Shown here: piece by piece, positions 1,901 through 53,700 of the stretch
Layout of the letters: every line of letters begins with the position of its first letter
Numbering within the stretch: position 1 is the first letter of the stretch
Source of the DNA: Cucumis sativus
Lineage: Eukaryota; Streptophyta; Magnoliopsida; Cucurbitales; Cucurbitaceae
Assembly (NCBI RefSeq): GCF_000004075.3
Contig: NC_026657.2
Location: 26,072,408-26,136,407 of the forward strand
Direction of reading: 5' to 3'
Length of the DNA stretch: 64,000 nt
Program-made: the position numbers and the translations under genes
Notes under the pieces: generated by a model
The model's input: the letters and a program-made list of their open reading frames with translations, nothing else
What the model was told of the DNA's origin: nothing
Database searches by the model: none

Positions 1901-3880
1901 TAAGAACAAGTTTTTCTTTTGTTTTCTAAAGAACTTACCCTTAAGCATGAGTGGTTTGCTCTACTTACGTCTCTTGATGTAATTTTGTATTCTTAGTATA
2001 ACAAGTTTCTTCTATATTCCAAACAACTTACCATAAAACATGAGTGGTTTGCTCTACTTGTGTCTCCCAAACAAACAAATGATAATAAATGATTTGCACC
2101 CCTTCTATTGAGGTTGGAATTTCGATCCACCATCCCCACTGTTCACATATACACACCACATTTTTATTTAATATTTTAAATGTATCTCAATTTAGAATTT
2201 AAAAAAATTAAATAAGAAAATTAATTAGGAAACATTATAAACTCATATGCTCAACATTGTAATATTATAAACGAACATGCTTTATCCTATAATTCTGGTA
2301 TAATAATTATTTTTGGACATTTTCTGTTACATTAACATATGCTTAACATTATATATTATAAATTATTCGATATCATAAAATAATAGTTATACAGGAGTTA
2401 TAGGATAAAACATGTTCATAAATACATGAATGATAATTGAAATTCAAGCAATGGCTAATTATAAAACACATTATAATCAATTATTTAAATTAATTTAAAA
2501 ATTGGTTAACAAACACGTCCAAAAAACTTGAAATTTTGTTTGAAATATATCTATACTTTTTTTCACCAAACTGAATCGATGGTGTAAAATGATGACATGC
2601 CCATAAATAGTAAAGGTAAAACTTCAGAATAATTTTAGACTTTGTAGAAAAATGAATTATAATTAGAAAAAAGTTAAAAAAACAAGAAAATAATAAGTAG
2701 CCACTGAGTTGAGAGAGTATAAGTGAAATTTGAAAACAGTGAAAAAAGAAGAAAAAGAAACAATTTTAAATGAACCGATAAGCATATTTGGACAACAGTG
2801 CGGTGGCATATACTGATTGGGCTCAAGTTGATAAAAGTAAGGCCAGTTGTGTAGGGGAAAAAAGTTTTATTGTCTTTTTTCCTCTTTTTAGGAAATGTGA
2901 AATAAATAAAATAAAGTAAAATAAAACATAATTGTTGCATTTTCTTTTTTTTTTCCCATAACGCGTATGAATCAATCTTTCATGCAACTGTGTGAGGCCA
3001 AGTGCCAATCATGGAAATCAAAGATATTAAAAGTCAAAATAAATACGCAAAAAACGGGGAAATTATAATAATCAGTACCAATATTCAATCAATAACAAAA
3101 AGTCTGAATGTTATGCTTATTCTGTCTTTGAGCTTTCAAAGTTCTCAAGGGTTTTTTTTTTTTTCTTTTCAAATGTGCAAAATTGTTATATTTTCTACAA
3201 AATTATTTTAACTCCAATTTTTCTTATTGAATTTCTGTTTTACTTCAACCATTGAAGGATGAGTACATTTATTCGTTACACTGTCTTCAATTAATTTTTT
3301 TGTTAATCATTTAATATTTTGAAATAAATAACTTATCAAAGAAACATATACCAATCAAACAATCAATAATATACATCAAACTAACAAATCATTCCTTAAA
3401 AAGAAACTCTAAATTCATAAATTTTTAAATTTTGAAGGCAACATTTGTAATTTTAAAAGGGTTAAACTATTTAAAAGTTATGACAGAAAGAAAATAATAG
3501 AAATTAATACAAGACTATAGAAATTGATACATGTGTATGGGTTAGTATTTATTATTAATATTCTTTGTAAATAATTTGACATTTTTACTGGCTTTTGAAA
3601 ATTTTGAAATACGAAAAATTCCCTACTTAAGCAATAAATATGAATTGAAATAAAAACAATTAAATGTACCTAAAGAAAGCTGTCCCGTTCTTCAATTCAA
3701 CACTTCTCAGCGCTCTTCTCACACTCAGATAACGATGAAAATTAATGGGAAAAATAAAAATAAAGTGAAATGAAATGAAAAATAGTAACCCAGAGAAACA
3801 TGGGGGAGAAGTGGCAGTTGAGAAGAAGAAAAGGGAAGGGACGAGGAAGTGGGGACAGGCTGACTTATTTAAACCTTCAT
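1901..3880. other. Intergenic region upstream of the PMT gene, no gene seen
   Basis: AT-rich DNA with homopolymer runs and no convincing reading frame on either strand. The last few hundred bases are presumably the promoter of the methyltransferase gene, but I could not pick out a specific TATA box or other element with confidence. Confidence 0.5.
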
Positions 3881-3906
3881 CTTCATGAAGCTCAACAAAA
3901 CACAAA

Positions 3907-3943
<37 letters not shown>

Positions 3944-5104
3944 GACACTGAAACCAGAGAGAGATTTTGAGATAGATAGACCCCAATCTCAATTTTACTT
4001 ATCATTCCCCAGTTTCTAAATCTTTGGTGGTGGGGATTGGAATACAAATTACAAACACACACACACACACACAAACTCAAGGTAAAAACTCTCTGTCTAT
4101 CTCTCTGGACTTTTTAGTCTATTCTATTCTAGAAATTTTCGTTTCATTTCTTTCTTGAAATGGCTTTCTATTCTATTTTTCTTCTTCTTTATTTCTCTTC
4201 CACAAACAGATCTCACTCTATGGACGCCTCGCCATTCTTTTCTCTTCTGTTACTATTATTAGATTCTGATGTGTCTTCATTTTTTACCATTTTCTTTTTT
4301 TTCAACTCACTTCTGTCTTCCTTTTTAACATTTTCGATTCCTCGTTGGGGGAAATTATTACAGTTGTTTTTTCCCTCGTCCATGTTTTCTTGTTTTGCTC
4401 CATTTCAGCAAATACTTGGCGGATTTTGCTTCACCCTCTACTTCTTTTAACAATAAAAGAAAATTATAATCTTCATTTTCACATTGGTGAATCAGAGGAG
4501 GGAAACGTCTCATTATCAAAACGGTGATTGTTGAATTTGATTTGGGTTTTAATTTCTCTCATTGATACTTGGATTCAAGGGGTGGGTTTTCCCTTTTTCT
4601 TTTTGTTCACTGTGTGTGTTTGTGTGTTTGGAGGGGCCCAACATCATGTGTGAAAATTCTAATCAATGGGGGCAAAGGAAAGTGGAAATTGTCGGTTGTT
4701 GTTGTCGGATGTTAAATTTTACAGCTGCACTTGATATGCTTTCATGTTCATCATTTGACAATTTATCTTCACTTATCTTTTTTTATTTTCTACTCCTTTA
4801 TCTGAATTCTTCATCTTTTTCCCCCCCTGAATGTCTTAACTCAAATCTGAAGATTTTATTTCAAGATCAAATTAATTGGATCCGTTGTTTTCCCATCTTG
4901 CCAGATTGTAGCTTGTAGGGTAGGTTTTGTTTTCTGTTGTAGATTCAATAGATTTGTTACAAGCTTCTGTTTTCAAGTCACATTTTCGTGTTTCAGACCT
5001 ATAATCAATAGATGCAAACATTCATACATAAGAAATAATGAAAATGGACTGTGACTAATAATCTGTCCCCATAGATTCCTTTTGCAGATTTTTGATAGGC
5101 AATC
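3881..5104 (+). promoter_or_regulatory. Probable 5' leader exon and 5' UTR intron of the PMT gene
   Basis: A (CT)16 run at 3909-3940 and an (AC)9 run at 4055-4072 lie in a pyrimidine-rich stretch typical of plant transcribed leaders. The sequence CAAG|GTAAAA at about 4081 would be a splice donor. TTTTGCAG at 5080-5087 is a good acceptor, 17 bases before the start codon. This predicts a 5' UTR intron of about 1.0 kb (4082-5087). The transcription start is not determined. The open frames inside this stretch are T-rich and not protein-like. Confidence 0.5.
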
Positions 5105-7669
5105 ATGAAGTATAAAGATGGGAAGCCAGGATATAACCCAGATAAAAATGCAAGAGTTCTTCCTATGACAATTCTGTTGTTTGTGTTATGTGGATTCTCG
5201 TTCTATCTGGGTGGAATCTTTTGTTCTGAGAAAGAAGGATTCAATGTCAACACATCCATGGATGTTGGAGACTCTGTTGCGTCAGCGAGGGATACAGCCG
5301 TTTCCCCTCTTCAACTTAAACCGGTTACCTTCCAGGAATGCAGCAGTGATTACCAAGATTACACTCCTTGCACAGATCCAAGGGTATTTCCTATTTAGAT
5401 TTTCTTAGTTAAGAGTATCTCATCTGTAAATCTACATATCTAATTTTCATTTTTTGAGTGTAGAAATGGAAGAAGTATGGTTTGCATCGGCTTACTTTCA
5501 TGGAAAGACATTGCCCTCCTGTGTTCGAAAGAAAGGAATGCTTAATTCCACCACCAGACGGGTATAAACCACCAATTAGATGGCCAAAAAGCAAGGATGA
5601 GTGTTGGTACAGGTAATATGTTGTTTCATGTTCTTTTCTTTTGCAAAGAACCTCCTCTTCACACATACGGATTTCAAACTTTCATCTGTTCCAATTACTT
5701 TAGGAACGTGCCATATGATTGGATCAATAAGCAGAAATCTAATCAAAATTGGCTGAGGAAAGAAGGTGAAAAGTTCCTTTTTCCTGGTGGAGGAACTATG
5801 TTTCCTCATGGCGTTAGCGCATACGTTGATCTGATGACAGATCTAATTCCAGAAATGAAGGATGGAACTGTTCGAACAGCCATTGATACTGGGTGTGGGG
5901 TGAGTCCTACTTTGAATTCATTCTTGTGTTTTCTACAACAAACTTTTCTAGTCACTAAGCCTCGTAATGCGATCTTTGCATTTTGAGGAAATTTTCGTTG
6001 TTTATTTCGAACAATTCCTAACTTTTCATAGGCACTTGATGGGATCATATTCTAAATTATATCAACGAACAAAAAGGTTTTTGATCAGTTCGGTGAATCA
6101 CATTCCAGGTTGCAAGCTGGGGAGGAGATTTGCTAGACCGTGGAATTTTAACAGTTTCTCTTGCACCAAGAGATAACCATGAAGCTCAAGTCCAATTTGC
6201 ATTGGAACGTGGAATTCCAGCAATTCTTGGCATCATTTCCACACAACGCCTTCCTTTCCCATCAAGCTCCTTTGATATGGCTCACTGCTCAAGATGCCTT
6301 ATCCCATGGACAGAATTTGGTAAATATCTATTTTTCAAAGATTAAATCATGTTAATTTCTTTTAAGAACGAATGTGTTACTACTGTACTCAATTGAGTTA
6401 GTTACTTGATTGTTTGTTGTGTTTTTAGTTTATGTTTATGTTTTTTGTTTTGATAAGATTTGTGATCATCAATCATCTTTCTTTTTTTTCTTTTCAGGTG
6501 GAATATACTTGCTAGAAATCAATCGAATCCTCCGTCCTGGGGGTTTCTGGGTTCTATCTGGTCCCCCTGTCAACTATGAAAATCGTTGGAGAGGATGGAA
6601 TACGACTGTGGAAGAACAAAGATCAGACTATGAAAAATTGCAGGAACTCCTAACTTCGATGTGCTTCACCCTTTACAACAAAAAGGATGATATTGCTGTT
6701 TGGCAGAAATCTTCAGATCCAAATTGTTTCAACAAGATTGCTGTTGATGCTTACCCGCCTAAGTGCGACGACAGCCTTGAACCAGATTCAGCATGGTACA
6801 GTCCATTGCGCAGTTGTGTCGTTGCTCCCAACCCAAAACTGAAGAGGACAAGTTTGATGGCCGTCCCTAAATGGCCAGATCGTTTACACACCTCACCGGA
6901 ACGTGTTTCAGATGTTTATGGTGGGAGTACTGGCACTTTCAAGCACGATGATAGCAAATGGAAGGTCCGAGCAAAACACTACAAGAAATTGCTTCCTGCA
7001 ATTGGGACTGAAAAGATCAGAAATGTTATGGACATGAATACAGTTTACGGAGGTTTTGCTGCAGCCATTATTGATGATCCTTTGTGGGTTATGAATGTGG
7101 TTTCTTCCTACGCTGCTAATACTCTTCCTGTGGTCTATGATCGTGGTCTAATTGGAACTTACCATGACTGGTAAAATAAAAAAACCGTTTCTTGTCCTTT
7201 ATTACTTTTTTTTATGGAGAAACTTTTCGTTAACTCGCAATGGTTAATTTGGCAGGTGTGAAGCATTTTCAACATATCCTCGAACTTATGATTTGCTCCA
7301 TCTTGATGGGCTTTTCACCGCAGAAGGCCATAGGTAATAAAGGATGATGTGTTATGAAAGTTCTTTTGTTTTTTATCTTTAAAAGTAATGGATGATTGGA
7401 AAACCATTAAAAGGAGTTTCTTCTGACCATTCTGCATTCCTTGCAGGTGTGAGATGAAGTATGTGCTTTTGGAGATGGATCGAATCCTGCGTCCAAATGG
7501 GTATGCGATAATTCGAGAGTCAAGCTACTACGCAGATGCAGTAGCCTCAATGGCCAAAGGGATGAGATGGGGATGTCGTAAGGAAGAAACCGAATACAGT
7601 ACCGAAAAGGAGAAGATATTGATTTGCCAGAAGAAGCTTTGGTATTCTTCTAACCGGAAATCAAGATGA
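5105..7669 (+). CDS. PMT21-like: Probable S-adenosylmethionine-dependent methyltransferase, PMT20/PMT21 (ERD3-like) type
   Basis: Seven exons: 5105-5383, 5464-5612, 5704-5899, 6109-6319, 6498-7170, 7256-7333, 7447-7669. All junctions are GT-AG and phases agree, giving 602 residues, the usual length for this group. A short cytoplasmic N-terminus is followed by one membrane segment (about residues 18-40), then a lumenal Methyltransf_29 (DUF248) region. Landmarks are [17 protein letters not shown], the SAM-binding motif [17 protein letters not shown] (about 204-220), HCSRCLIPW, and a second half with [16 protein letters not shown] and [18 protein letters not shown]. Plant family members are type II Golgi proteins thought to methylate pectin or other cell-wall glycans. 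The exact substrate is not shown by sequence. The ATG chosen directly precedes the conserved KDGKPG/membrane segment. No frameshift or lost motif was seen, so the gene looks functional. Confidence 0.95.
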
Positions 7670-47290: not shown

Positions 47291-48125
47291 GTAACTTCAT
47301 CCATAAACTATCCATTTATATCGAAAAATTGGCAAAAGTAGCACACTTTTGGTTTTACATTCCAAAAGTAGGACACTTTCAAAAATCTCAAAATTTTGTT
47401 TTTTCCTATCAATTTCTACTAACTTTGACACCGAGTTTCTTCTCAAATTTTAAAAAATTGATTCAACATAATTTCTCGATCCATCTCGACAGAATTCGAC
47501 ACCGAGATTTTAGGTTTTGTTTTTAAATTTCTAAATAAAGAGATTCTCAAATGACCAAAAAAGCCTTGAAAGCCTGAACTTTGGATATTTGTAAACCTTA
47601 AACCCTATGTCCATTTTGGCAGAGAGAAGACATATTTGCTTCCAAAATTGAATAGATTTATCTGATTTTTGCTTGCCAAAATTTCAAAAAGTCATCCTCA
47701 AGCTTAAATATATGACGGTGATTTACTTTAAATGATTTCATAGTTTAGAATTGGATTTTAAGTTGTGTTATAGTGTTTTCCGTGGAATTTAAGACAAATG
47801 GAAAAATATGTAGTTGGTTTTCTGTTGTAGGTGGATGTAGAACTATAATTTATTTTAATGTATATGGTTTTCATTGATGAATCACTAGAAGAAAACTACC
47901 CTACAATGACAGTTATATATCTCAAAAAATGAATGGAAGAAAAAAAAACTGTCACGAAATATAAAATTTCGCGTTTTTGGCGGGAAAAGACGGAATTTTT
48001 CGGAAAACACTTTTCGCGACAGTTATTAACTGTCATAGAATGTTAGGGTTAAAATTTTTTTCTTTTTTCCTTTTCTTTTCTTTTTCCTTTTTCTTTCTTT
48101 TCCCTATTTCCTTCTTCCTCCCCGT

Positions 48126-48611
48126 GTGTCCTTCCCCTTCTCCCCAGCCGCAACCGCCGCGCCTCTTCTCCTTCCTCCCGTACCCGCGACGACTCCACCG
48201 TCTCCTTCTCCCTTCCCTTCCGTTTCCTTTCCGCCGCAGCCCAGCCGCCGCCAGCCGTCTTTCTCTTCCGTTTTCTTCCCGCCGCAGCCCAGCCGTAGCC
48301 CGCGATCTGCCGTCTCCATCTCCGGTTCGCGAAGCAACCTTGCAGCAGTCGTCCCGCGCGCCGATCTGCCGTCTCCATCGCCGGTTCTGTCTTCGTCGAA
48401 GCCCGAGCCGCCGTGTGAACCAGTAATCGCCACGTTCGCCGCTCACAACCGCCGTGAAGCCAGCCGCAACCTTCGTTCCAACCGCTGCACTGCCGCACGA
48501 TTCTCCGGCCACGTCTTCTTTAGCCGACCGCTGACCGACCCACACTTAGGATTTTGCTGCGAGTTCGACAGTCGTGCGTTGAGTGTTGGGAGTAACCTTG
48601 GGCTCCCTTAA
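48126..48611 (+). other. GC-rich leader-like segment inside the CACTA element
   Basis: A C-rich block in otherwise AT-rich DNA, open in several frames on both strands because stop codons are rare at this composition. The + frame gives Pro/Ser/Arg-rich, low-complexity protein (PATTPPSPSPFPSVSFPP). Direct repeats are present, for example GATCTGCCGTCTCCATC at about 48304 and 48362, and CCGCCGCAGCCCAGCCG twice. A splice-donor-like GAG|GTAAGG follows at about 48711. It may be a captured or element-derived 5' exon. I do not recognise a protein domain. Confidence 0.4.
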
Positions 48612-50890
48612 ATTCACAACCAAATTGTGAATTGTTGAGGGTTCAGTTCGCCAATATTTCGGATTTGATTCATTGGATTTAGTCGATTGAAGAATTTGCA
48701 TAGAAATCGAGGTAAGGGATTTTCTACTGGACTCAATTGTGATTGTGAACTGTATGTGTGTTGAATGTATACTGTGGTTTGACTGAAAATATATATGAAT
48801 GCATGTGAATTGAAGTAGACATAACGTCGAATGTATATCGTGAATGTCATGGAAGATATATATAAGTGTGTGTATGTTGACAGGACAAAGATTGTAGATT
48901 GTGTTGGTATGAGATATAGATATGAACTTGTGATTCTCGTTTAGATTGGGTGTACGATTACGCTAAAGTATGATTGGGTTAATAAGGATTGGCCTGTTTG
49001 TTGTTTGTTGTTTTTTCTTAGTAATGGTAGTGTGTGAAAGGGAATTTGATAACTCTATATATTGTTTAATTATGGTTTTGAATTCTGTTTTGTGTCTTTA
49101 AAAGGACGTTGAACTTCAAAATCGTTTTAATAGGGTCCTTGAACTTTGATTTTTTCTTTAGGGGAAGGGGTGTGTAAGGGATTTTGATTTTAGTCATTGA
49201 ATGCCAGTGTGTAGCGCCCACCTCCAGGTGACGGATTTTCAGCAGCCACCGTCGCCCTCTTCCAATTTTGTTTTCGACAACCCTCTCTATTCTATGTTGC
49301 TGTTTCCAATGGGGTTGTATTATCTTCTGGAGTATACATGTTGGATTTGTTGTAGATGTAGCCATGGTTGCTTCCTCCTTCGTTGCTTATTCTTAACTTC
49401 ATGTAACTTATAGCCATCTAATTCGTTTCTTCTTCCTATTTTTTCTCCTCTTCTAATGGCATCTTTCATTCTCTACATCCAACTTGCGCAACCGTGATAT
49501 ATTCTCCAAGGTAAGTATCTCTTTAATGGACGTCAAAAGACTGCATCTTGAAAAATGATTTCATCCAAGATATATTCATATGGGCTTTTTTATTCCTTTG
49601 AAAGAATGCCATTCATATATTACACATCCTTATACCTGAGTTTACAAGGTTGTTATAGTACTTTCGCGTTTCATGAGTGAAAAGATAGAATCAAGTTGCG
49701 GAATTACGTTCATTTTTAGAGCTCTTAAGTGATTGAAGATAGTTGATGTATATTTATTTTCTCAAAAGTCACATTTTTTGCAAGTTTGGTTTACTTTGGA
49801 TTTATTAAAGATAATACCAGTTCACTTATTGATTCCATTCATTCCCGAAAAAATTCTTTAAAAAAATTTAGTTTAACACCAAGAATCGCTTTGAGGATTT
49901 ATCTCCTTAAGGGTTGTCGGAACCATATACTGAACATCTACAATACGTTTGATCATAGTTAACTTTACAATGATCTAGTTGATAGTCTTCCTATTTGTTG
50001 AGCTTCTCTTTTAGATTGAAGGAAAGGGAAAGACTTGGCTAGGTTGTGGCAAGCAAACTTCTTCGCTATTATGTGGAGAAATTTAGAGGGGAGGCTAGGG
50101 AGTTAGAGAGTTTTTTTGGAAAAAAAAAAAGAGACGGGACTTTACATTAAGAGAATGAAAAAAAAGACCAATGTTCAAAGAAGTGAAAAAGAGCAACATA
50201 GCACAAAAAAAAGACATAGGAACATAATGCAAAAAGTAAGCTAGAGAGGTGATAAGGATAATTAGTATATTTTAGTTAATTGGTTAATTGTCTTATTTTC
50301 CTGTAAGGCTATAGATAGCCAATTTAGAGTGTATTTGAACCTCTTGAATATCTTTCCAATATAGAACGTTGTTCTTGGAGAGCTTTTTCTCATCTCTAAG
50401 GAATGAGATTTCTCTTGTTCCAGAATGGATTTGGCATGGTACTCCAACCTGCTGCATCAAGAGGTTTAATTATTCAGTTTGGGCATTGATCACTAGGACT
50501 TTTTGTAATTGTGATAATGATCTTGTTCTTTTTTATTAGATTGTTTTATGTGATTAGTCATTGACTCCTTTTTATGAGTATTACGTCTTTTTTTTGTTTT
50601 TCTTATTGCAATTTGGTTTTGGTATTTCTGTTGTATGTCTTTTTATTATTATTATTGCAATTTGGTTTTGGTATTTCTGTTATGAATAGAGTTTTGTTTG
50701 CCCTTGGTTCTTTTATTTTTTCAATAAACGTTCGGTTGCTTAAATAAAATGGTTCTCTGGACAGAAGTGAATTGTGAGTTTACTGAATTTGGTAAATTTA
50801 GAAGCATTCCTCTGTGCATCCTCTAGTAGATTTTGGATTTTCCTCTTCCACTGTAATGGAATTGGACCGAGAAAAGTTAATGTGTTCCAG

Positions 50891-50995
50891 TTATTTTACG
50901 GTGCTGGCACTTACATGTTTGGAATTGATGATGAACGAATAATTGATGCTACAAGGGCTGGAAGCATTGCTCATCTGATCAACCACTCTTTCGAA
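50891..50995 (+). pseudogene. Captured exon fragment of an ATX1/ATX2-type SET-domain histone methyltransferase
   Basis: After an acceptor-like TGTGTTCCAG the frame reads LFYGAGTYMFGIDDERIIDA and TRAGSIAHLINHSFE, then a donor-like GTATGT. This is the central part of the SET domain of trithorax-type H3K4 methyltransferases. In intact proteins it ends in the NHSC.PNC pseudoknot motif that builds the cofactor and substrate site. Here the Cys of NHSC is Phe. The flanking SET, PHD and PWWP exons are not found in the element. The piece keeps its splice signals but cannot encode an enzyme. Capture of a host exon by the transposon is the simplest reading. Confidence 0.8.
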
Positions 50996-52554
50996 GTATG
51001 TATTACTTTAACAATTGATTTACTTTTTATTTTTTCCTTTTATGTTAATGTTCTTTATCCTCATGAGATGACTCATTAAATTATGTGTCAATAGAATTAT
51101 CTTATATCATAGTGCTCTATGGAGATGAATGCAAGTTAGCTAAATTTTTCCTTAGATGCTTGAAAGTTAGAAGAGAAATTTAACTCCGGTTTTTCTCTCA
51201 TGGACTAAGCTATCTTATTCTTACACAGTAACTGTTGCTCCTCACAGAAGTGTTCAAGGATAAATAAAGGTTCATATTAGAAGTGGACGTCCATTAGTTT
51301 TGGTATGTATGTAAATTATTTTAAATCTAAGTATCTGATTTCCTAATAGTTGAAAACCTTAGTTTATTGACAAGAAATCAAATGGTTACTTCTGAAGTTG
51401 GTTGATTGTATTTGGTTATGTCTACTAATGAGAATGACTTTACCTTAAGGGGATAGACTTTAGTTTTGGTATCTCCAATTGAGAATTTAGCCATTGTGCT
51501 TACTCTTTATGGAGTATCTAAAGACAAGAAATCGACACTCCAATGCTATGAAAATTTTCCTATAAGGTAACATTTATAGTCTCATGTTCATTTGGTATGT
51601 TATTTTATTTGCTTACTTTGTAATACTATTCTATTTTAGAGCTATTTAGTCAATTGATTGTAAATTTTGACTACAGCTGATGATATGTGGGGAAGATATT
51701 CATAGTTCATCTTTATTGGCGATGATTGCATAATACAAACTGTTTAACTCTAAGGATTACAAATTGTCGTACATGTATTGTCGTAGGCTGTTTTGTTCTA
51801 AGGACTAGGAACAACCCAAGAAGTTGTTCAATTTGCAGTGGCCATTTGGTTGGACGTTCTTCTTCTCCTTGATCTCTTTCTCCTCTTCTTAGGAACTTCA
51901 TTTTCATTATCAGATTTGAAGAGGGACCACCATGAGTGGGGTAGTAAAATGAATAGAGAATGGGAGAGTGAGCTGGGTATGTTTTTGGTATGTGTATTCT
52001 AGAGAGAAAGAGTAGCAGTATGTTTTTGTTTGCTGTGTTTGCCTAATATAGTCCTCATGGTCTTCTCTTTTCATTTCATGGAATCAAGTGTTGAAGTTCT
52101 TGTTTGTGTTCTGTATTTTGTTGAGACGTTGATTTAGTTATTCATTGACTGTACGTATGTGTTATGGATTCTTTGTAGGTTCAACTGGAGTCGACAAGTT
52201 CATGAGTTTTGTTTCAAATATCATTTCCAGAAACGAACATTCTCGGTTGGTCCAGTCAAATATATTCGAATGCTATTTAAGATATTTTTTGATTAAGGGT
52301 TAGTATTTCGTACATGTGGATTACTGAAACTTGTATTAAGATGTACAAATATTATAAATCGTATTATAGTGTATATATATTAAAGTGTTGGCTATTTTAT
52401 TGTACATTGGTGTGAAACTTGTATAATTTCAAATTTTTCATTCTCAGCTACATTATTGTCATTCTAATGGTTCGTGTAATGGTGGAGCTGCATGGAGAAC
52501 AGAATAAAACTATAGGAAATTGAGAAATGTGATAGTTAATAGTTGTTGTAAATT

Positions 52555-53134
52555 GGAGAACGATGACAGTTATTTAACAAAATAAATTGTCACGATTGCT
52601 CTATATGTGACAGGAATAACATGTCGTCATAAGATAAACAATGACAATTTTTTTTAAAAAAAAAACTGTCACGATTGCATTATATTTGACTGGAAAAAAA
52701 TGTCGTCAATGGCAAAACAATGACATTTAATGTTATCGAAAAACTGTCACGATTGCACAATCATTGACTGGAAAAAATGTCGTCAATAACTAAACAATGA
52801 CATTTTTACAAAAAAAAACTGTCGCGAAAAACATATTCATGACAATTAATACATGTCACGATAATAGAATTCGTGACAATTATTTAACTGTCGTTAATAA
52901 AGAAATGATGATAGTTATTGAATGTCATAAAATAAATTATGACAATTATTGAATGTCGTTGAATGTTGATTAACGACATTTATTTCATGTCATAAAACAA
53001 CCTATTGCGACAGTTTTCAAAAACTGTCGTCGAAGGCCTTTCCATGACTCCCGCTTCTATGACTGAAAATAACTGTCGCGAAATCCGTTCGCGACAGTAA
53101 ATAACTGTCGTCGTAGCCCACTTTTGTACTAGTG
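52555..53134. repeat. Subterminal repeat array of the CACTA element (right end)
   Basis: About fifteen occurrences of TGTCGC, TGTCAC, TGTCGT and their reverse forms (GACAATT, GACAGTT) are spaced tens of bases apart, several forming hairpins such as CGACAGTTTTCAAAAACTGTCG. A longer unit, AAACTGTCACGATTGCA then TTGACTGGAAAAAATGTCGTC, recurs at about 52665 and 52742. Such arrays bind the subterminal-binding protein in characterised CACTA systems. Confidence 0.75.
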
Positions 53135-53137
53135 AAT

Positions 53138-53700
53138 CTTGACAATTTCATCAATTTTGGCTAGTGTAGATGAAGAATCTTGATCGAGATTGATGAAATT
53201 GCCTAGAGATATGTTGAATTAGTCTCGAGACTTGTTGCGTTTCACATGCATTTTATAGAGTATTATCGGGAACAATTTCACTCGAGATTGGGCCAAGAAA
53301 CATCACATAATGCATGTAAAACCCTTATCTCATGGCATCTGGGTCAATGTTGTTCGAGTTCAATAGTTAATTCATGTTATTCTCAGTCGCGATAGATGAT
53401 ACTAATCAAATGAGCACAATGTTGAGGGTTTACGAATATCAAATGAGCACAGTCAAATTTATGCAAAAATCAGTCAAATCTCTTCAGTTTTGGAAGCAAA
53501 CACATTTTTTTTCGATTGAAATGAGCACAAAATTTAGGATTTACGAATATCAAACATTTGAGCTTTCAAGGGTATTTTAGTCAATTGAGAATACCCTTTA
53601 TTTTGAAATTTAAAATCAAAACTCACAATCTCAATGCTAAGTTTGGCCGAGGATCGAGAAATTAAATCTAGTGGTTACTATTTTGTGGTCCAGTCTTATA
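53138..53700. other. Flank right of the CACTA element, no gene seen
   Basis: No known protein. The words TTTACGAATATCAAA and AATGAGCACA are repeated around 53430-53560, so a short local duplication is present. It is probably old transposon sequence split from the left flank by the CACTA insertion. Confidence 0.4.

Follow-up and report, generated by a model that had tools for sequence, protein, structure and literature searches.

A Cucumber CACTA Element Family Carrying ATX1/2-Type SET and BONZAI/Copine Gene Fragments

Introduction

The window analysed here, a whole stretch of 64,000 nucleotides of the cucumber (Cucumis sativus) genome, contains what looks like an exon of an ATX gene between the ends of a transposable element. 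ATX1 and ATX2 are trithorax-type H3K4 methyltransferases, that is, histone-marking enzymes. The locus raises the question of whether this exon was captured by the element, from which gene it came, and whether it could still act in its new context. Elements of the Pack-CACTA kind are known also from Arabidopsis, and Catoni et al. (2019) reportedly deals with Pack-CACTA or Pack-TYPE elements.

Results

Boundaries and Copies of the Element

The ends of the element are exact when read directly, with CACTAG/CTAGTG termini, GATGAAT flanking CACTAGAAG on the left and AATCTTG following TACTAGTG on the right (coordinates in Table 1). The terminal inverted repeat is imperfect, with 41-nt arms that are 76% complementary (a count that includes 4 nt of flank). 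Subterminal repeats are dense and mostly concentrated in 52544-53110, many of them of the CTGTC(A/G)CGA type, with direct families D1-D8 and inverted pairs I1 and I4-I8.

Whole-length matches to the 5,252 bp were found at 7 genome places including the window, at 98-100% identity and with a mean pairwise divergence of 0.55%, and a 3-bp target duplication was present at all 7. Since two of the copies (L005 and L006) have identical flanks over 1,500 bp on each side, these places correspond to 6 distinct sites. Seven full-length places, each with its target duplication, indicate that the element boundaries are not due to chance, and the complete CACTA element with an AAT duplication proposed in the sequence-only reading was confirmed. 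In addition, paralogous sites without the insertion were detected, the joined-flank junction being crossed by more than 30 nt in 37 of 42 rows. One of them (L065), read base by base, is unbroken over the joined site, with a single AAT and 80% identity (437/549).

Table 1. Features of the element and its surroundings (positions in the window; element positions count from its first nucleotide).
Feature	Position	Strand	Details
Non-autonomous CACTA element, whole	47883..53134	+	5,252 bp; C3:26120290-26125541
Target site duplication AAT, left copy	47880..47882	n/a	Direct reading
Target site duplication AAT, right copy	53135..53137	n/a	Direct reading
Left terminal region, common to relative L061	47883..48066	+	93% over element positions 1-184
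G+C-rich leader	48060..48979	+	Many genomic copies outside the subfamily, 71-98% identity (best 40 of 430 and best 40 of 269 candidates scored)
BONZAI/copine fragment (intron-exon-intron)	49285..49874	+	92% to C3:6370825-6371412
Copine C2-domain exon	49463..49510	+	LSFSTSNLRNRDIFSK, parent LSVSASNLRDRDIFSK; acceptor GGCAG in parent, GGCAT in element; donor GT retained
ATX segment, left part (intron)	49998..50581	+	88.8% to C6:2279600-2280169
Stretch without counterpart in today's ATX parent	50582..50690	+	109 bp; overlaps a 42-nt direct repeat with 49-nt spacing
ATX segment, right part (intron-exon-intron)	50691..51286	+	93.0% to L045 (C6), 86.9% to L047 (C7)
ATX1/2-type SET exon	50900..50995	+	90/96 nt identical to parent
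Right internal and terminal region, common to L061	51697..53134	+	96.5%, element positions 3815-5252

Coding Capacity and a Relative Encoding Transposase Domains

The only open reading frames of at least 150 aa in the element are overlapping frames of the leader, and no transposase was found at the place of the element among the Transposase_21 matches listed (best 150 of 435), in agreement with the earlier claim that it has none; the Pfam scan of the element's own frames was that of the SET piece alone. The leader may be the 5′ region of the CACTA family itself, or partly another repeat.

Both ends of the element are common with a relative at C1:16722801-16732800 (L061), which encodes Transposase_21, Transpos_assoc, DUF4218 and DUF4216 domains (PF02992, PF13963, PF13960 and PF13952) in broken frames. 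No matching target duplication was found between its flanks (AAA on the left versus ATT on the right). With a broken transposase frame and unmatched flanks, this relative is at best a putative transposase source. The terminal inverted repeats, the 3-bp duplication, the subterminal repeats and the kinship with Transposase_21 (TNPD) place the element in the CACTA (CMC/EnSpm) superfamily, and it is of the Pack-CACTA type, having no detected transposase of its own and host protein-coding gene DNA (ATX and BONZAI/copine) inside.

The ATX Segment and Its Parent Gene

The ATX piece comprises about 1.3 kb in sense orientation with intron, exon and intron. A parent ATX gene was located in the host genome, at a C6 locus with 93% identity to the right part and 89% to the left part. 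Its exons are open through the SET domain and the CYCGYPRCRG end to the stop codon, and once joined they match Pfam SET with an E value of 7.4e-27, this reading representing the 3′ part of the gene. A FYRC match, with one TAG within it, lies 12 kb upstream of the C6 SET on the same strand; FYRC is presumably what distinguishes ATX1/2 among plant ATX genes. With a SET domain, a Cys-rich C-terminal end and FYRC upstream, the predicted donor gene has the features of the ATX1/2 type.

Over most of element positions 2116-2699, the ATX locus is the sole match outside the family (23 of 23 candidates scored), the other outside matches being short (at most 184 nt, 71-85%). The homology to the C6 parent ends at 51286, and that to the ATX-like copy L047 on C7 extends as far as 51381. 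This end, together with the additional 109 bp between the two parts, indicates that today's C6 sequence is not exactly the one that was captured. For two older copies of the ATX exon, L047 (C7) and L048 (C6), terminal repeats and copy number did not point to a vehicle.

The SET exon differs from the parent by R>G, V>I and C>F and by two silent changes, and the NHSC motif became NHSF in the element. Its frame covers 32 residues, compared with 105 positions in the Pfam SET model; the short piece gave an E value of 0.15 with this model, under the cut-off, and the frame with its translated surroundings matched PDB SET chains of KMT2A (MLL) with a best E value of 6.5e-6. No relative of the exon was found in viral contigs, where 17 pattern matches were obtained.

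For the exon borders previously placed at 50891-50995, the donor (GAA/GTATGT) was retained, but the acceptor used (AG at 50889-50890) is not the parental one, and comparison with the parent moves the exon start to 50900. The parental acceptor TTTCAG/GG reads TTTTAC/GG in the element, with a cryptic CAG at 50888-50890, 9 nt further upstream. A search for copies with the same fragment found the SET exon in 13, and the parental acceptor is lost in 13/13.

The order of intron, exon and intron, retained as in the gene, would also be expected if the element had inserted into or next to an ATX gene of which the exon is what remains. This explanation has a negligible probability, since the 6 distinct sites have the same ATX segment enclosed by the same ends and the window holds no other ATX exon. 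Of five parent exon peptides, one matched the 64-kb window, that of the SET exon (E value of 2.2e-16), with all remaining matches at E values of at least 1.0. These results speak against a larger gene, intact across the ends of the element, to which the SET piece would belong.

Copies without the SET Exon

In three copies (L017, L018 and L020) the exon is missing, and all are joined cleanly at one and the same point, element positions 2731/3594, where CAATT overlaps by 5 bp. Such an identical junction could represent the state before ATX capture, with 50614-51475 inserted later between CAATT repeats. However, the three copies retain positions 2116-2699, which correspond to the part of the ATX intron that immediately precedes the exon, making that order of events very unlikely. 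An internal deletion at CAATT is the simpler explanation.

The BONZAI/Copine Fragment

Copines are membrane-associated C2-domain proteins. A second capture, absent from the sequence-only reading, was observed in the form of a BONZAI/copine fragment of about 0.6 kb, in sense orientation like the ATX piece. It differs from its C3 parent by 41 mismatches in 586, and that locus is its only match outside the family among the matches listed (best 40 of 430). The first three exons of the parent, when joined, match BONZAI 1 with an E value of 2.5e-41.

Discussion

The capture of an ATX1/2-type SET exon, as originally proposed, is borne out by the copies, their target duplications, the uninserted paralogous sites, the parent locus and the relative with transposase domains. 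We consider it very probable that the element belongs to a Pack-CACTA subfamily that took up ATX1/2 and BONZAI/copine DNA and moved in trans. CACTA ends and leader enclose about 0.6 kb of the copine gene on C3 and about 1.3 kb of the ATX1/2-type gene on C6, presumably taken up in the course of repair synthesis or when neighbouring elements were excised together. A CACTA (TNPD-type) transposase recognising the shared ends would then have mobilised the element in trans, leaving 3-bp duplications, as suggested by the near-identical copies at different sites. The amplification was probably recent.

Captures of several unrelated host gene fragments by CACTA elements are described for soybean Tgm-Express1 (PMC1947982) and maize Pack-CACTA (PMC8903248), so that calling the cucumber element unusual was overstated as to kind. 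Tgm-Express1 is likewise a CACTA element, of comparable size (5.7 kb), with several unrelated gene fragments including exons and introns, whereas it lies in an intron of a gene that is expressed, and splicing incorporates its exons into transcripts (PMC1947982). By comparison, the cucumber element has lost both parental acceptors and has 13 SET-exon copies. The difference from the Pack-CACTA/Pack-TYPE elements of PMC8903248 lies in the host and the gene identities (ATX SET and copine C2 exons). CACTA-like elements of Chenopodium also captured host gene fragments, which are reported to be located outside the CDS of those elements having one, unlike the cucumber element with no detected transposase (PMC8978399). 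In the titles and abstracts of the literature searched, no cucumber CACTA element was reported to carry a piece of ATX.

As for function, the most likely role of the captured exons is that of passengers, since neither keeps its parental acceptor and the SET exon encodes only 32 residues of the domain. Alternatively, they could act through chimeric mRNAs or through small RNAs regulating the ATX and copine parents, given that the same exon occurs in 13 copies and that both pieces are sense-oriented downstream of the G+C-rich leader. Windows perfectly matching the parent amount to 195/1,270 (21-nt) and 146/1,267 (24-nt) in the ATX piece, and to 138/570 and 114/567, respectively, in the copine piece. 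There are also precedents, namely chimeric transcripts from Tgm-Express1 (PMC1947982) and captured sequences reported as siRNA reservoirs in maize Helitrons, Pack-MULEs and Sireviruses (PMC13317346). Nevertheless, such a role seems very unlikely: the acceptors are lost in both pieces, and only 9 (21-nt) and 5 (24-nt) of the perfect ATX windows touch the exon, with none touching the copine exon, so the mature mRNAs would be poor small-RNA targets. The earlier suggestion that the element could yield chimeric RNA, or small RNAs directed at the parent ATX gene, is mildly disfavoured on sequence grounds.

Selection for the acceptor losses was also considered and found unsupported, as 84/111 parental AG dinucleotides survive over the captured DNA (25/38, 39/47 and 20/26) and two losses by chance have a probability of about 6%. 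A more elaborate scenario, in which the ATX and copine introns would now be shared small-RNA targets, transposon silencing would feed back on the H3K4 methyltransferase gene and acceptor losses would be favoured by keeping the transcript unspliced, is highly improbable.

With the exons regarded as passengers, the element family is a clear case of a known phenomenon, gene capture by CACTA. In a single genome assembly, the two donors and the deletion derivatives occur together with uninserted paralogous sites and a relative encoding transposase domains, and the age of the capture (7.0-8.8% divergence from the C3 and C6 parents) can be compared with that of the amplification (0.55% among full-length copies). 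If the ATX piece did produce small RNAs, transposon silencing in cucumber would be linked with a gene whose product sets an activating chromatin mark.

Element structure, copies and insertion site

The element is flanked by 3-bp target duplications at all seven full-length places. Together with its termini and the AAT on both sides of the window copy, this bears out the sequence-only reading of a complete CACTA element. The whole-element genome search, with the best 40 of 1,320 candidates scored so that copy counts are lower bounds, gave at least 56 rows. At least seven of them, the window copy among them, cover all 5,252 bp at 98–100%. Since two full-length copies, L005 and L006, are identical over 1,500 bp of flanking sequence on either side, the seven places represent six distinct insertion sites. 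Despite their identical flanks, the two elements themselves show 5 differences over 5,299 bp, the pair being either a segmental duplication or an assembly effect. Mean pairwise divergence of the full-length copies was 0.55% in the correctly oriented alignment. Plant substitution rates are 0.7–1.5·10−8 per site per year; on these values the divergence corresponds to about 0.2–0.4 million years.

Three further copies (L010, L011 and L012) have element positions 3969–4168 replaced by a different block, of 1,302 bp in L010, 1,298 bp in L011 and shortened in L012, and L011 additionally lacks the first 140 bp. The block also occurs elsewhere in the family, pointing to an exchange of right ends among its elements.

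The 600-bp joined flanks, with the element removed, were searched with the best 40 of 112 candidates scored, giving 42 rows. Among the matches listed, two are the window itself, 37 extend more than 30 nt across the junction, one extends 2 nt across it, and two stop short of it; at least 38 rows other than the window match over more than 290 nt. The uninserted site L065, the one row read base by base, is identical at 437 of 549 positions and has GATGAATCT at the expected element position. Therefore, the element landed in an older interspersed repeat, whose inverted arms surround it. Elsewhere in the window, an open frame includes a 19-residue stretch and presumably resembles a plant methyltransferase.

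Coordinates of the element, its parts and related loci (bare numbers are window positions; the window itself is C3:26072408-26136407)
Feature	Position	Remark
Element	47883-53134	start CACTAGAAG, end TACTAGTG; AAT on both sides, read directly
Arms of older repeat	47469-47672, 53463-53664	inverted, about 205 bp, 74%
Leader	48060-48979	
Copine middle exon	49463-49510	reads LSFSTSNLRNRDIFSK
SET core	50740-51300	561 bp
SET exon	50900-50995	
Most subterminal repeats	52544-53110	
Open frame	6410-7174	
Copine parent	C3:6370825-6371412	92% to element positions 1403-1992
L005, L006	C2:18328109-18333407, C5:17641103-17646401	full-length copies
L047, L048	C7:12837138-12837687, C6:5538528-5538683	ATX exon region copies
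Leader + right-end pairs	C3:28.10 Mb, C3:20.42 Mb, C19, C1:12.35 Mb, C7:9.25 Mb	basis: coordinates
48654-48979 match pairs	C7:58271/64101, C1:15055406/15061236, C1:15159867/15165844, C20:17591/23764	same strand

The captured ATX fragment

The SET core matched 16 places (16/16 candidates scored): 13 element copies at 97–100%, one partial, and three loci outside the element, namely C6:2280222 (93%), C7:12837138 (87%) and C6:5538528 (90% over 156 bp). The earlier reading proposed to look for other copies with the same fragment and for the host ATX gene; such copies were found, and C6:2280222 is the likely parent. Its upstream exons read GKSGIHGFGIFAKHPHRAGD and VIEYTGEIVRPPIADRRERFIYNLLV, the exon matched by the element comprises 32 residues, and the downstream exons continue to CYCGYPRCRGVVND, followed by a stop. 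The joined exons match Pfam SET (E 7.4e-27), and a FYRC match containing one TAG is found in the same orientation 12 kb upstream. L047 and L048 have about 375 bp upstream in common at 92%; at least one further duplication of the ATX exon seems to have taken place.

Element positions 2116–2699 (88.8%) and 2809–3404 (93.0%) correspond to the C6 parent, where the two pieces adjoin; the 109 bp between them are present in the element only. The homology of L047 to the element reaches position 3499 and therefore suggests a change in the C6 parent intron after capture. P0004, from a large protein database, agrees with the element, and not with the C6 parent, in having a Q ahead of LF and in some residues derived from the intron, and it keeps NHSCE, a pattern that fits a capture preceding some changes in the parent.

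The SET exon is identical to the parent at 90 of 96 nt. It carries two silent changes and the replacements R>G, V>I and C>F, the last of which involves two bases and falls within the NHSC motif. Of the exon borders proposed from the sequence, the donor is retained; the supposed acceptor is a cryptic CAG 9 bases upstream, while the parental TTTCAG reads TTTTAC in 13/13 exon-holding copies. If used, the cryptic site would append LFY in frame. Among the five proteins read of 47 matching the element's SET frame, NHSFE occurs only in P0002, encoded by the window itself.

The captured copine fragment and the age of the captures

A second host fragment matches a BONZAI/copine gene; among the matches listed (best 40 of 430 candidates), no further place outside the element family was found for it. 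The exons of this parent read MGNCFSNEAAG..., LSVSASNLRDRDIFSK and SDPMLVIYIKG...; joined, they match BONZAI 1 (E 2.5e-41), and the last two match Pfam C2 (E 4.2e-9). In the element the middle exon retains its donor, and its acceptor has changed from GGCAG to GGCAT; this state occurs in 13 copies, counted from 14 loci of which two coincide.

The copine piece differs from its parent by 7.0%, and the ATX piece by 7.05% in its right part and 8.8% in its left part; these comparable values may thus indicate a similar capture age. On the rates given above, 7% corresponds to roughly 2.3–5 million years, although introns may evolve at other rates.

Relatives and derivatives

L061, a relative on C1 spanning 8.8 kb from CACTAG to CTAGTG, matches element positions 1–184 (93%) and 3815–5252 (96.5%). 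It encodes PF02992 (E 3.6e-87), PF13963, PF13960 and PF13952 in broken frames, and no target duplication was found in the flanks examined. The leader has many genomic copies outside this subfamily. Among the matches listed, five of at least 94% identity are paired with a right end in matching orientation and correct order, at gaps of 2.5–3.4 kb, with no SET match in between in the SET core search (16/16 candidates scored); judged from coordinates, they resemble sibling elements that differ in their middle part. Part of the leader also gives same-strand match pairs about 5.8–6.2 kb apart, candidates for either LTR pairs or tandem elements.

Three copies (L017, L018 and L020) lack positions 2732–3593, with an identical CAATT junction. 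They were considered as the state before ATX capture, which was rejected since positions 2116–2699, matching the ATX intron, are kept; they are therefore read as deletion derivatives.

Mechanism and implications

The element has cut-and-paste-type ends and target duplications, several copies and cargo from two donors. It would have moved in trans and captured host DNA, either by joint movement of neighbouring insertions or by template switching during repair. Neighbouring Pack-CACTA insertions moving as one element are described as a capture route in PMC8903248 and PMC13317346. Overall, we consider the family genuine: a Pack-CACTA subfamily that amplified recently, carries captured fragments of two host genes and is of a kind already known.

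Perfect matches of the ATX piece to the parent locus comprise 195 of 1,270 21-nt windows (9 touching the exon) and 146 of 1,267 24-nt windows (5 touching it). For the copine piece, the values are 138/570 and 114/567, respectively, and none touches the exon. Since few perfect windows touch exons, any small RNAs produced could mainly target introns and hence nascent RNA or DNA.
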